Below, one piece after another: positions 42 through 4,662 of a stretch of DNA of 5,631 nucleotides. The position numbers were made by a program, and so were the translations under genes. Origin of the DNA: Streptococcus oralis. GTDB taxonomy: Bacteria > Bacillota > Bacilli > Lactobacillales > Streptococcaceae. The notes under the pieces are model-generated. The model searched no databases, had not been told where the DNA came from, and saw nothing but the letters and a program-made list of their open reading frames with translations. Each line of letters starts with the position of its first letter. The first letter of the stretch is position 1. The stretch spans positions 1-5,631 of the forward strand of contig CAJPKC010000091.1 in NCBI GenBank assembly GCA_905370255.1, given 5' to 3'.

Positions 42-1241
42 CTAACCTTTCTTCTTCATGTAAAGGAGATTGAGAAGAAGCCCAACAACTGCGAGAGCGA
101 TAGCAACGTAGAATGCGGCACTGTAATTTCCATTGTTGGCTGCTGCCATTTGAACCGCAACTTTAGGTGCAAAAAATGCAGCTAAAGAATAACCTGTGAA
201 GACGATACCGTAGTTGACTCCCTGATTAGCAGGTCCGTAGTTCTCCATGACAATAGATGGGAAGACACCCATAACACCGCCGAAGCAGATGCCAAGACCG
301 ATGATTCCTAGAGTAAAGCCAAATTGTCCAGGGATGATTGTTAAGGAGAAAAGTGCCAATACGATGACTGAATAGATAATTAATAGAGTCTGAGAACGAC
401 CAATTTTATCAGAGAGTGATCCCCAGATAAAGCGTCCGCTAGAGTTTGCGATTGAATAGAGAGAGACATAGAGAGCTGCTGTACCAGCAGAGAGTCCAAA
501 CATGGATTGACCAATTGGGGATGCTTGAGAGGCAATCATCAAACCAGAGAAGGCACCGACAAAGAACATGCTGATAATGATGTAAAATAGTGGACTTTGT
601 AGCATTTCTTTCCAGTTTTTATTAGCAGGTCCTTGTTTAGTTTGTACGGGAGCTTTCCAACCTGCTGGTTGGTAGCCACTTGGTGCAGCCTTGATGAAGA
701 AAATGGCAGCGATAATCACAACAATATAGATAAGTCCAATGGTTCGAAAAGCAAAGAAGGCATCTTGTTTTTGAATGAGACTACTTGCAACTGGTGACGC
801 AATAACTGCGGCAAATCCCATACCTCCTGTTAGAATCCCAGAAGCTAAACCACGTTTATCTGGGAAGAGGCGAAGAGAATTTGAGAGGGCTCCTGAATAG
901 GCAAATCCTTGACCAAGACCTGCCATCAAACCATAGGTAAGATAGAGCATGGCTGGTGAACTAGCATAACCAGTTAGGAAAAAGCCACTAGCAAATAGAA
1001 GGGCACCAAGTGCAATTGTCCATTTCACATATCCCTTGTCTACCAGGTAACCTCCAAGAATCATCGGAATCGGTCCGATAGCTGAGTTAATAGCAAATGC
1101 GAGCATAATCTCGGACATAGACCAACCTGTTGAGGAGCTTAAAGGTCCAGCAAAAACTGAAAAGGAATAGACAGCACCTGTACAGAGAAGAATAGCAGTT
1201 GACGCAGCTAGAACTTGCCAACGATTGAATGTCTCTTTCAT
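42..1241 (-). CDS. OFA-family MFS carboxylate transporter (oxalate:formate antiporter-like)
   Basis: This is a 399-residue integral membrane carrier of the major facilitator superfamily, expected to move small organic anions across the cytoplasmic membrane. About 12 hydrophobic helices are visible, roughly at 8-32, 46-67, 74-93, 98-120, 131-155, 167-184, 217-239, 252-275, 284-304, 308-333, 341-364 and 373-395, with a hydrophilic central loop at 185-213. MFS motif A appears after helix 2 (GGYLVDKG, 63-70) and again after helix 8 (GSLSDKIGR, 274-282). The N-terminal RWQVLAAS...GAVYSFSVF pattern is typical of the OFA family. R270 in helix 8 and K360 in helix 11 may correspond to the two basic residues that bind oxalate in OxlT; this match is from memory and untested. 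The start is fixed by AAAGGAGG (complement of 1250-1257), 8 nt before ATG. It is transcribed divergently from the reductase operon, so its cargo may be that enzyme's substrate or product. Family assignment is solid; substrate is unknown and 'oxalate/formate' should not be taken literally. Confidence 0.93.
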   Translation of the reverse strand: MKETFNRWQVLAASTAILLCTGAVYSFSVFAGPLSSSTGWSMSEIMLAFAINSAIGPIPMILGGYLVDKGYVKWTIALGALLFASGFFLTGYASSPAMLYLTYGLMAGLGQGFAYSGALSNSLRLFPDKRGLASGILTGGMGFAAVIASPVASSLIQKQDAFFAFRTIGLIYIVVIIAAIFFIKAAPSGYQPAGWKAPVQTKQGPANKNWKEMLQSPLFYIIISMFFVGAFSGLMIASQASPIGQSMFGLSAGTAALYVSLYSIANSSGRFIWGSLSDKIGRSQTLLIIYSVIVLALFSLTIIPGQFGFTLGIIGLGICFGGVMGVFPSIVMENYGPANQGVNYGIVFTGYSLAAFFAPKVAVQMAAANNGNYSAAFYVAIALAVVGLLLNLLYMKKKG

Positions 1242-1461: not shown

Positions 1462-2070
1462 ATGAAATTAGTTGCTATCGTTGGAACAAACTCTGACCGC
1501 TCAACCAATCGGAAACTTTTGAAATTTATGCAAAAGCATTTTTCAGATAAAGCCGACATTGAGGTGTTGGAAATCAAACACTTGCCAGCATTTAACGAAC
1601 CTGAGGACAAGCTAGCGCCTGCCGAAGTTCAAGCTTTTTCAGAAAAAATCCTTGCTGCAGATGGTGTGATTATCTCAACACCTGAGTATGACCACACCAT
1701 ACCGGCACCCCTGGCTTCAGCCTTGGAATGGATTGCTTACACTAGTCGCGCTTTGATTAACAAACCAACGATGATTGTCGGAGCTTCTCTTGGATTGCTT
1801 GGAACATCTAGAGCCCAAGCGCACTTGCGTCAGATTCTTGATGCGCCTGAACTGAAAGCAAGAGTGATGCCAGGGACAGAATTTCTCCTAGGTCATTCTG
1901 AACAAGTATTGGATGATGACAATCATTTGAACAATCCTGAAAAAGTTGCAGAGTTGGAAGAACATTTTTCAGAGTTCCAAAACTTTGTTGAACTAACAAA
2001 AGCTTTGGTCAAACCAGAAGATACAAACCGTAAGAAATCATTCATCTGGGAAGAATGGTTGAAAGCATAA
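1462..2070 (+). CDS. FMN_red-family NAD(P)H-dependent flavoprotein, probable small subunit of the reductase
   Basis: This 202-residue protein has the flavodoxin fold of NADPH-dependent FMN reductases/azoreductases. The FMN phosphate loop is [10 protein letters not shown] (8-17), with the family's S-x-N at S14 and N16. The second flavin loop is TPEYDHTIP (73-81), close to the canonical PEYN but with Asp replacing Asn at 77. A GAS...[13 protein letters not shown] segment (107-125) follows. There is no signal peptide or membrane segment, so it is cytoplasmic. Ungapped over 180 residues it matches the first domain of the next protein at about 97 positions; residues 181-202 are a distinct basic and aromatic tail. 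The ATG is 7 nt after a GGGGG ribosome binding site (1450-1454). The next gene starts 25 nt downstream, so the two are almost certainly cotranscribed. Family members dimerise with FMN near the interface, so pairing with the large protein's N-terminal domain is the likely role. By gene order it resembles HcrA of Lactiplantibacillus plantarum. A free-standing FMN reductase remains possible. Confidence 0.88.
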
Positions 2071-2095: not shown

Positions 2096-4507
2096 ATGAA
2101 ATTAGTAGCTATTGTTGGTACCAATGCCAAACAATCCTATAATCGCAGTTTGTTGCAATTTATGAAAAAACATTTTGCGTCAAAAGCCGATATTGAGATT
2201 TTAGAAATTACCGATGTACCGATGTTCAATGAAACCGATGATCAAACAGATACACCTGTTATTCAGAAGTTTAACAAAGCGATTTCGGAAGCTGATGGTG
2301 TCATTATCGCGACACCTGAGCATAATCATACAATCCCATCAAGTTTAAATAGTTTGCTCGAATGGTTGTCTTTTAACATTCATCCACTAGATGGGAAACC
2401 AACCATGATTGTAGGGGCTTCCTATGATGTTCAAGGATCTTCGCGTGCCCAACTTCATCTTCGTCAGATTCTTGATGCACCCGGGGTAAATGCAACAGTT
2501 ATGCCAGGAAGTGAATTTTTACTTGGTCGAGCTCATCGAGCATTTGATGCAAATGGAGATTTGATTAATGAGCGAACTGTTGATTTCTTAGATAGCTGTT
2601 TCTATCGTTTCCTTCGCTTTGTATCTGTTGCAAACCAACTAAACCTTCCTGAAGAAATCCGATTTGAACCAGGAACTTATCATGTTACAACTGAAGGTCA
2701 CAATGGTAAGTTACCGATGGACGTCACCGTTTCTGAAGACCGTATTGAAAAAATTGAAATCGATTCTTCTGGAGAATCTTCAGGAATCGCAGATGTTGTT
2801 TTCACTCGTATTCCAGCAGAAATCATTGAGGGACAAACTTTAAATGTTGATGCGGTGTCAGGAGCTTCTGTGACTTCAAATGGTGTCTGGGACGGAGTTG
2901 CACGTGCGGTCAAACAAGCCGGTGCAAATCCAGATGTTTTACGGAAACGTTCCAAAGCACCATCTGCCTTGGATAAAGAAGATAAAACTTATCAGGCCGA
3001 CGTTGTCATTGTCGGAGGTGGAGGAGCTGGTTTAGCTGCAGCTGCTGCAGTTTTACAAGCTGGTAAAAAGCCAATTATCGTAGAGAAATTCCCAGCAATT
3101 GGAGGAAATACGGTTCGTGCAGGTGGTCCAATGAATGCACCAGATCCAGCATGGCAAGGGACCTTCGCAGCTCATCCAGGTGAGGCACATACGCTTCAAG
3201 AATTGATTGCGACAGATGAATCAACGATTGACCCAGAATATTTAGAGGACTTTAGAGCCTTGAAGGTTGAGGTTGAGAAGTATTTGCAAGATCCAAGCTA
3301 TTTGTTTGATTCTACCTTACTTTACCGTATCCAAACCTATATCGGTGGAAAACGAAAAGATTTACAAGGACATGAAATTCATGGCCAATATGATTTGGTT
3401 TCTGTATTGACTGAACGTGCCCTAGAATCTGTTCGCTGGTTGGAAGACATCGGTGTTGAATTTGTTCGTAGTGAAGTAACAATGCCAGTTGGAGCCCTTT
3501 GGCGTCGTGGTCATAAGCCGGTTCAACCAATGGGGTATGCCTTTATATCTGTCCTACAAAAATATGTTCTAGAACATGGTGGCAAGATCTTGACTGACTC
3601 TCCAGTTAAAGAATTGCTTGTAAAAGACGGGGCTGTCAAGGGTGTCAGAGCAGAAGGTCGAAACGGTCAAACCATCATTGTCAATGCAGATGCTGTTGTT
3701 CTAGCTTCTGGAGGATTTGGTGCCAATACCAAGATGCTACAAAAATACAATACTTACTGGACCGAAATTGCGGATGATATTGCCACATCTAATACACCAG
3801 CTGTAACAGGAGATGGAATCCTCTTAGGTCAAAGTGTAGGTGCAGATCTAGTGGGTATGGGCTTTAGTCAAATGATGCCAGTATCCGATCCAGTGACAGG
3901 GGCTCTCTTCTCAGGACTTCAAGTTCCTCCAGCTAACTTCATCATGGTAAATACTGAAGGGAAGCGATTTGTAGATGAGTACGGCAGTCGAGATAAGCTA
4001 TCTCAAGCAGCGATTGATAATGGAGGCTTGTTCTACTTGATCGCAGATGATCGCATCAAGGCAACAGCCTACAATACTAGCCAAGAAAAAATCGATGCCC
4101 AAGTCAAAGCAGGCACTCTCTACCGTGCAGATACGATAGAAGAGTTGGCGGTTCAGATTGGTATGGCCCCACAAGTTCTAGTGGAAACGATTAAGAATTA
4201 CAATTCCTATGTAGATGCAGGTTTTGATCCTGAATTTAATAAAGGTAGTTTTGATCTCAAGTGTGAGGTTGCGCCATTTTACGCAACACCGAGAAAACCA
4301 GCCGTTCACCATACAATGGGTGGGCTCAAGATTGATACTTCAACACACGTTTTGAATGAACAAGGTCAGATTATTCCTGGTTTGTATGCTGCCGGAGAAG
4401 TTGCAGGAGGACTTCATGCAGGTAACCGTCTAGGAGGAAATTCGCTTACGGATATCTTTACGTTTGGACGTATTGCAGGTCAAACAGCTGTTCAAGAAAA
4501 TTGTTAA
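2096..4507 (+). CDS. Multidomain flavin 2-enoate reductase (FMN_red–FMN_bind–FAD_binding_2), fumarate reductase superfamily
   Basis: An 803-residue three-flavin enzyme. Residues 1-180 form an FMN_red domain: S14/N16 in the phosphate loop and TPEHNHT (73-79), where His replaces the Tyr of PEYN. Residues about 193-275 form an FMN_bind domain with DAVSGAS (252-258), the ApbE flavinylation motif; S258 is the predicted covalent-FMN acceptor. Residues 301 to about 797 form a fumarate reductase-type FAD domain: GGGGAG (307-312), E330 ending the second strand, [10 protein letters not shown] (336-345), SRDK (631-634) with general acid R632, HHTMGG (738-743) and NRLGGNS (777-783) with R778. M594 and G607 fall where fumarate reductases have His and Glu, arguing against fumarate. 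No signal peptide, haem motifs or membrane helix are present, so it should be a cytosolic NAD(P)H-driven reductase rather than a periplasmic flavocytochrome. Ribosome binding site AAAGGAG (2081-2087), spacing 8. Tandem stops end it. Likely substrates are other unsaturated carboxylates such as acrylate or hydroxycinnamates; the exact one is not determinable here. Confidence 0.92.
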
Positions 4508-4546: not shown

Positions 4547-4618
4547 TTATATCATATAGTTATTAAGTAAAGACCTCCTAACTTTATTTAATAGAAATCC
4601 TAAACTTTTCTTTTTCAT
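4547..4618 (-). CDS. Possible 23-residue cationic peptide antisense to the operon's 3' region
   Basis: A complete 23-codon ORF on the minus strand begins MKKKSLGF and ends NNYMI before TAA. It has an AGGGAG ribosome binding site (complement of 4625-4630) 6 nt before the ATG. The product would carry six basic residues (K2-K4, K12, R14, R15) and no acidic ones. Leu/Val at 6, 9, 10, 13 and 17 fit one face of an amphipathic helix. It is convergent with the reductase operon and lies between its stop codon and its terminator. I see no convincing minus-strand promoter and recognise no family. In DNA this AT-rich a 23-codon ORF is easily random, though the site and composition make it worth recording. 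Confidence 0.25.
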   Translation of the reverse strand: MKKKSLGFLLNKVRRSLLNNYMI

Positions 4619-4634
4619 AATAATCTCCCTAAAG

Positions 4635-4662
4635 AAGCCACCAAATTCGGTGGCTTTTTTTT
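4635..4662 (+). terminator. Intrinsic terminator of the reductase operon
   Basis: A perfect 8-bp stem, AAGCCACC (4635-4642) with GGTGGCTT (4649-4656), encloses a 6-nt loop and runs into eight T residues (4655-4662). This is a textbook Rho-independent terminator on the plus strand, about 130 nt after the stop codon of the large flavoprotein. The minus-strand reading lacks a comparable U tract after the stem, so it acts in one direction. It separates the operon from the ABC transporter gene. Confidence 0.9.

Follow-up and report, generated by a model that had tools for sequence, protein, structure and literature searches.

We analysed a DNA stretch of 5,631 nucleotides from Streptococcus oralis (the whole stretch is called the window below) and conclude, from comparison of sequences, that it carries a streptococcal HcrA-HcrB system, a member of one two-gene HcrA+HcrB family. 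It is reasonably likely that the natural role of the predicted enzyme is that of an aryl-acrylate reductase, with hydroxycinnamates as the first substrates. The kind of enzyme is already known from Lactobacillus HcrB, of which the putative reductase described here is a further, streptococcal member. The useful results are a residue signature that tells HcrB from UrdA, and evidence that hcrB and the gene named urdA in Lactiplantibacillus plantarum are one gene. Papers are cited by PMC number.

The gene pair and its match to L. plantarum HcrAB

The reductase of 803 residues has the domain order FMN_red (residues 1-147), FMN_bind (201-273) and FAD_binding_2 (302-796). It also matches the flavocytochrome c model TIGR01813, and a heme domain is absent. 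The gene of an FMN_red partner protein lies directly upstream, which is the layout of HcrAB (lp_1424/lp_1425) of L. plantarum. The reductase is 68.6% identical to L. plantarum HcrB over 797 residues, and the partner is 61% identical to HcrA. At 20 pocket positions, which we picked from the UrdA and Fcc3 papers, the window protein and HcrB are identical in 20/20 cases, against a background of 70% for the FAD part. In E. coli extracts supplied with NADH and FMN, HcrB is reported to reduce six hydroxycinnamic acids, with partial conversions; cinnamic acid was not a substrate (PMC10295242).

The two systems differ in their neighbours. In L. plantarum a LysR gene and hcrC adjoin the pair, while streptococcal copies are without LysR, and within the window we found no LysR-type (hcrR-like) regulator. 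The text of PMC10295242 places hcrR downstream of hcrB; the L. plantarum hcr locus that we compared has its LysR gene upstream, in divergent orientation, in agreement with the order lp_1422-1426 in a legend of the same paper.

Upstream of the pair, in the opposite orientation, the window encodes an MFS transporter (Table 1), whose score exceeds the threshold set for an L-lactate transporter model and stays below that of an oxalate/formate antiporter model. For a monocarboxylate carrier of this type, an aryl acrylate is a better fit than fumarate. The window also includes the start of an ABC ATPase gene. By similarity its DNA is of the mitis group: over 4.1-4.7 kb, the window is 93-96% identical at the nucleotide level to loci of S. 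infantis and S. pseudopneumoniae and to that of one further genome.

Table 1. Genes, motifs and pocket residues in the window
Feature	Position	Strand	Evidence
MFS transporter, L-lactate/monocarboxylate type, divergent	42..1241	-	NF049980, 419.8 bits vs cut-off 320
HcrA-type partner, 202 aa, FMN_red protein	1462..2067	+	61% identity to L. plantarum HcrA
HcrB-type reductase, 803 aa, FMN_red / FMN_bind / FAD_binding_2	2096..4504	+	domains; 68.6% identity to L. plantarum HcrB
SGAS flavinylation motif, residues 255-258, with S258 as putative FMN acceptor	2858..2869	+	S258 in 168/168 relatives
M594, replaces Fcc3 H365 / UrdA Y373	3875..3877	+	phmmer, MAFFT
S606-G607, replaces Fcc3 T377-E378	3911..3916	+	MAFFT
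Q609, replaces UrdA D388	3920..3922	+	phmmer, MAFFT; hhalign disagrees
P611-P612, replaces proton-relay Arg (R381/R390) and UrdA lid F391	3926..3931	+	MAFFT
R632, catalytic general acid (Fcc3 R402, UrdA R411)	3989..3991	+	phmmer, MAFFT
H738-H739 of HHTMGG; H738 = Fcc3 H504 / UrdA H520	4307..4312	+	phmmer, MAFFT
R778, carboxylate ligand (Fcc3 R544, UrdA R560)	4427..4429	+	phmmer, MAFFT

Residues of the substrate pocket

Residues were mapped by phmmer against PDB chains, by a MAFFT alignment of 100 rows and by a second MAFFT alignment with 120 UrdA-like proteins. The numbering was checked, with the UrdA residue number equal to the index in chain 6t85 plus 128, and the Fcc3 numbers were verified likewise. 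Note that the S. frigidimarina Fcc3 chain is the H365A mutant and has Ala at this site, while the S. oneidensis chain has His.

The original prediction, which compared the reductase with Shewanella flavocytochrome c3, assigned R632 to the general acid R402, H738/H739 to the HHTMGG histidine and R778 to R544, and saw M594 in place of H365. All these assignments are borne out by phmmer and both MAFFT alignments, with H738 as the binding histidine; the same three alignments place G781 at G547/G563. The pair T377/E378 falls on S606/G607 in MAFFT, as had been proposed, and is shifted by one residue in phmmer (G607/L608, a one-residue indel).

Several equivalences go beyond that prediction. UrdA D388 corresponds to Q609, gap-free in phmmer and both MAFFT alignments; hhalign against a single UrdA sequence sets D388 opposite P612 with compensating gaps, and the 120-sequence alignment disagrees with it. 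In MAFFT, P611 takes the place of the second proton-relay arginine of Fcc3 (R381), which UrdA keeps as R390. According to the 100-row alignment, the lid residues F391, F243 and F245 of UrdA correspond to P612, T462 and P464, and E177 to P345. The first AlphaFold model had a pLDDT below 50 across residues 587-614, so we did not use it for the pocket. A second model, of residues 290-803, has a mean pLDDT of 86.9 and agrees in fold, with UrdA as the closest solved fold and Fcc3 just behind; it gave no residue map.

In comparison with the known enzymes, the window protein shares with canonical UrdA (Shewanella oneidensis, 6t85-6t88) the FMN_bind and FAD domains, the catalytic arginine and the carboxylate ligands. 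It differs by its FMN_red domain and by the pocket, where Tyr373, Asp388, Arg390 and Phe391 (Y/D/R/F) are replaced by M594, Q609, P611 and P612 (M/Q/P/P). With Shewanella flavocytochrome c3 it shares the fold and the equivalents of R402, H504 and R544, whereas H365, E378 and R381 have become M594, G607 and P611 and the heme domain of Fcc3 is missing.

The original prediction also held that the residues here (Met, and Gln or Gly) match neither fumarate nor urocanate reductase, and that the substrate might be one not yet described. The comparison does not support a pocket unlike anything known: L. plantarum HcrB has both Met and Gln and the same pocket throughout the compared positions, and among UrdA homologues Met (PMC11872695) and Gln (PMC7921117) have been reported. 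Asp388 is essential in UrdA, and among gut UrdAs it is exchanged for Asn or Gln (PMC7921117). At the place of UrdA residue 373 the window protein has Met, the residue by which a review (PMC11872695, citing Koh 2018) names 'M' homologues of UrdA; as that review states that bacteria with 'Y' or 'M' homologues do produce imidazole propionate, M594 alone is no sign of an unknown substrate.

Conservation and phylogeny

To quantify conservation we used 168 relatives, namely the best 120 of 1148 protein-search hits and 48 others among the best 120 of 1291; these are close relatives, and the search words were drawn from the first 500 residues, hence outside the pocket loop. M594, G607, Q609, P611, P612, R632, H738 and R778 are each present in 168/168, as is the flavinylation residue S258. 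The UrdA-like proteins, for which we took the best 120 of 7915 hits, share 58-96% identity with the S. oneidensis stretch and all have Y373, D388, R390, F391, F243 and F245 (each 120/120). An 88-row Hcr set was composed of the window, HcrB, six plasmid loci and 80 genome loci (the best 80 of 211), and in it we find M594 in 87/88, Q609 in 85/88, P611 in 87/88 and P612 in 88/88 rows. The counts of M593 and M594 in the genome loci are not independent, since 80/80 carry the motif MGF[ST]QMM by which they were selected, and these M594 counts were set aside.

Fixed differences between Hcr and UrdA proteins are concentrated in the loop 590-615 (7/26 positions vs 25/419 elsewhere, p = 0.0013). Without positions 593 and 594, which belong to the motif used for row selection, the enrichment is 5/24 (p = 0.017). 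In a tree of 64 rows, the Hcr, UrdA and H-type (fumarate-like) proteins form three groups with support of 100/100, 100/100 and 99/93, respectively; we make no claim about their branching order, because the join of Hcr and UrdA lies between long branches. The window reductase and HcrB fall together in a starred clade of 82 rows that represents the two-gene type. Judged by tree and alignment, HcrB-type and UrdA-type proteins are separate clades with distinct fixed pockets.

Genomic context and distribution

The FMN_red partner was found in 80/80 genome loci, the best 80 of 211. An MFS homologue lies within 2.5 kb of the B gene in 18 of the 29 streptococcal loci, divergent and upstream, and in 24 of the 51 non-streptococcal loci, downstream and on the same strand; the pair has no MFS gene near it in 38/80. 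A LysR gene is found upstream in 50/51 non-streptococcal vs 0/29 streptococcal loci, and ApbE is adjacent in 35/51 vs 0/29. Among the 197 Streptococcus genomes, however, 192 encode an ApbE, and each of the 39 that have an intact reductase gene is one of these. As the streptococcal loci have no LysR gene, inducibility by phenolics is not implied for them; the missing regulator bears on regulation and not on catalysis.

An intact, full-length reductase gene occurs in 39 of the 197 Streptococcus genomes (one of them only 53% identical), and S. oralis is among the carriers (L009, L064). Partial or interrupted copies were seen in at least nine further genomes (G039, G062, G080, G113, G121, G130, G136, G144 and G195), although some of these may be contig ends. 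The gene is thus patchy and decaying in Streptococcus. Proteins 80-97% identical to the canonical UrdA of S. cuniculi are found in 5/197 Streptococcus genomes, one of which is also a carrier.

Histidine ammonia-lyase genes (hutH) above the cut-off are found in 3 of the 39 carriers vs 52 of the 158 other genomes (p = 0.0012, with shared ancestry ignored), and one further carrier (G094) has a match below the cut-off. Since hutH is rare among them, most carriers show no recognisable way of making urocanate from histidine and would need urocanate from outside. Strains with urdA and without hutH still convert supplied urocanate (PMC13320830).

The urdA gene of L. plantarum

When a stop codon was base-edited into the gene called urdA in L. 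plantarum, imidazole propionate became more than tenfold lower in urocanate-fed cultures (PMC12014835). The forward primer of that paper has one match, in 1 of 21 Lactiplantibacillus genomes, and the reverse primer, which we searched in that locus, has a single match there. The amplicon spans the region from the end of a 204-residue FMN_red gene into an 812-residue three-domain gene. The proteins of this locus have 315 (LysR), 204, 812 and 186 residues, in agreement with the sizes reported for hcrR, hcrA, hcrB and hcrC in strain WCFS1 (PMC11126511). From the primers and the genus we infer that the genome is L. plantarum. Because the primers lie on the hcr locus and the protein sizes match, the knocked-out urdA appears to be hcrB. 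There is one discrepancy: the edited residue Q111 of PMC12014835 is Ser in the primer-bearing genome, where the nearest editable Gln is Q113.

A search of this genome with canonical UrdA gave nothing above 39% identity, and HcrB itself was found at 35%; the 39% match has His at the key site. In the open-licence literature, we found no paper naming a hydroxycinnamate reductase together with urocanate, and none among the matches listed paired hcrB with urdA, urocanate reductase or imidazole propionate. The qPCR primer strings for strain SN13T do not match the L. plantarum locus over any 15 bases; the hcrB of SN13T is given as 90% identical to that of WCFS1 (PMC11126511).

Proposed function and alternative readings

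The pocket of the window protein equals that of L. plantarum HcrB, which supports a substrate of the hydroxycinnamate type; the original prediction had likewise pointed to another 2-enoate such as a hydroxycinnamate. We consider the protein to be probably an aryl-acrylate reductase that is NADH-dependent and flavinylated, and not a fumarate reductase. Several points count against the HcrAB reading: the partial conversions by HcrB and its inactivity on cinnamic acid, the lack of LysR at streptococcal loci, the lack of an MFS gene near the pair in 38/80 loci, and the rarity of phenolic acid decarboxylase (3/197 Streptococcus genomes), whose co-occurrence is uninformative.

The protein could instead be mainly an 'M'-kind urocanate reductase, converting outside urocanate to imidazole propionate with hydroxycinnamates as side substrates, but we regard this as rather unlikely. 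It would agree with PMC11872695, which (citing Koh 2018) counts UrdA homologues with 'Y' or 'M' as true producers of imidazole propionate, with the occurrence of Gln in place of D388 among gut UrdAs (PMC7921117) and with the more than tenfold loss caused by editing the apparent L. plantarum orthologue (PMC12014835), in a species whose primer-bearing genome yielded no canonical UrdA above 39% identity. On the other hand, all six UrdA ring-side residues that we compared differ (E177, F243, F245, D388, R390 and F391), and hutH is depleted in carrier streptococci, again with kinship ignored. Fumarate, too, was doubted in the original prediction, for which the fumarate-specific residues were lost, and our results agree: none of H365, E378 and R381 is retained, and the replacements are fixed in 168/168 relatives. 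That the protein is a fumarate reductase whose pocket is unusual, for which one could cite the common superfamily, the TIGR01813 match, and the conservation of the catalytic arginine and both carboxylate ligands, is hardly credible. The window clade is separate from the H-type proteins in the 64-row tree, and UrdA, which is without fumarate activity, gains a little of it when Tyr373 is changed to His (PMC7921117).

The reductase might also act on acrylate or another small 2-enoate, like the OYE-fused Vibrio type, which seems improbable to us. Vibrio and Staphylococcus plasmids encode OYE-FMN_bind-FAD proteins that are 55-58% identical in the shared domains, keep M594 and P612 and have their apbE adjacent. 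We take the Vibrio proteins to be of the NADH:acrylate reductase type, with an OYE-like N-terminal domain. However, these proteins have Ile at 609 and a different donor domain (OYE-like, where the window protein has FMN_red), and they branch outside the two-gene clade. A Vibrio cinnamate reductase was not matched by name, either in the open-licence literature or among the best 120 of 1291 proteins.

For the aryl-acrylate reductase that we favour, a mechanism can be proposed; residues, family and gene linkage are as observed above, and the chemistry, with cofactors and substrate, is modelled on UrdA, Fcc3 and HcrB. NADH, by analogy with HcrB, would reduce the N-terminal FMN_red domain, perhaps aided by the partner protein, and electrons would pass to a covalent FMN presumably bound at S258, in a motif of the [S/T]GA[S/T] type described in PMC8238504, and then to FAD. 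The aryl 2-enoate (hydroxycinnamates first, urocanate likely second) would bind through its one carboxylate to R778, H738 and the backbone of G781, with M594, Q609, P611 and P612 forming an uncharged aryl pocket. Since Met, Gln and Pro replace His, Glu and Arg, the second carboxylate of fumarate would find no partner. C3 would receive a hydride from FADH- and C2 a proton from R632, which would yield the aryl propionate. As P611 stands where the relay arginine would be, R632 would probably be reprotonated from solvent, as has been proposed for the proton resupply in UrdA (PMC7921117). The system may serve as a soluble NADH sink at low oxygen, and the MFS protein would move the acids.

A wider reading is that NADH:aryl-acrylate reductases with the M-Q-P-P pocket form a single promiscuous class under two names, hcrB (for plant phenolics) and 'M-type urdA' (for imidazole propionate), and that oral and gut streptococci with the gene, mostly without hutH, cross-feed through the linked MFS protein, taking up urocanate or hydroxycinnamates that other organisms release and giving off imidazole propionate or phenylpropionates. 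We put this forward tentatively, as an idea that may well be wrong. If true, such cross-feeding would account for part of the reported association of Streptococcus with imidazole propionate.

Consequences for annotation and surveys

Sequence sources label proteins of this family 'urocanate reductase' or 'flavocytochrome c'. In one metagenome survey, any homologue lacking His at 373 was taken for a true UrdA (PMC7676231), and by this rule the HcrB-type family would be pooled with canonical UrdA. With the signature M/Q/P/P vs Y/D/R/F, surveys can separate the two types. Should hcrB and the L. plantarum urdA prove to be the same gene, a single enzyme would join dietary phenolics and imidazole propionate. 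The signature also makes the output of imidazole propionate from supplied urocanate testable in carrier streptococci, including S. oralis, and the streptococcal HcrB-type reductase offers a testable link to gut metabolites.

Further observations

Rex- or CcpA-like regulatory sites upstream of the genes were considered and dropped; Rex-like sites have at least two mismatches in each of the 19 upstream regions compared. The spacer between the MFS gene and the A gene (1242-1461) contains a TATAAT-like box that is kept in most of these regions. Directly 3' of the reductase gene, at 4562-4660 on the plus strand, there is a match to the Cia-dependent small RNA csRNA1 (Rfam csRNA, RF02379; 98 bits vs a gathering score of 57), whose 3' hairpin (4631-4660) looks like a terminator.

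In three streptococcal loci (L028, L029 and L031) a gene of a family 1 glycosidase (GH1) is found upstream of the A-B pair, a weak hint that the reductase is possibly tied to the use of plant glucosides. Bee-gut Gilliamella (Pseudomonadota; L037-L040, L043, L053 and L063) have an A-B pair that is about 73% identical, and its position in the tree among Enterococcus and Vagococcus suggests transfer from Gram-positive bacteria. The genome with the S. pseudopneumoniae locus contains a second cluster (L098, 22-2736) with an ApbE-like frame, a 209-residue FMN_red protein like the A protein of the window and a 411-residue protein whose N-terminus is FMN_red. Many Streptococcus genomes have similar-sized open frames (about 410-425 residues) that match residues 1-190 of the reductase.
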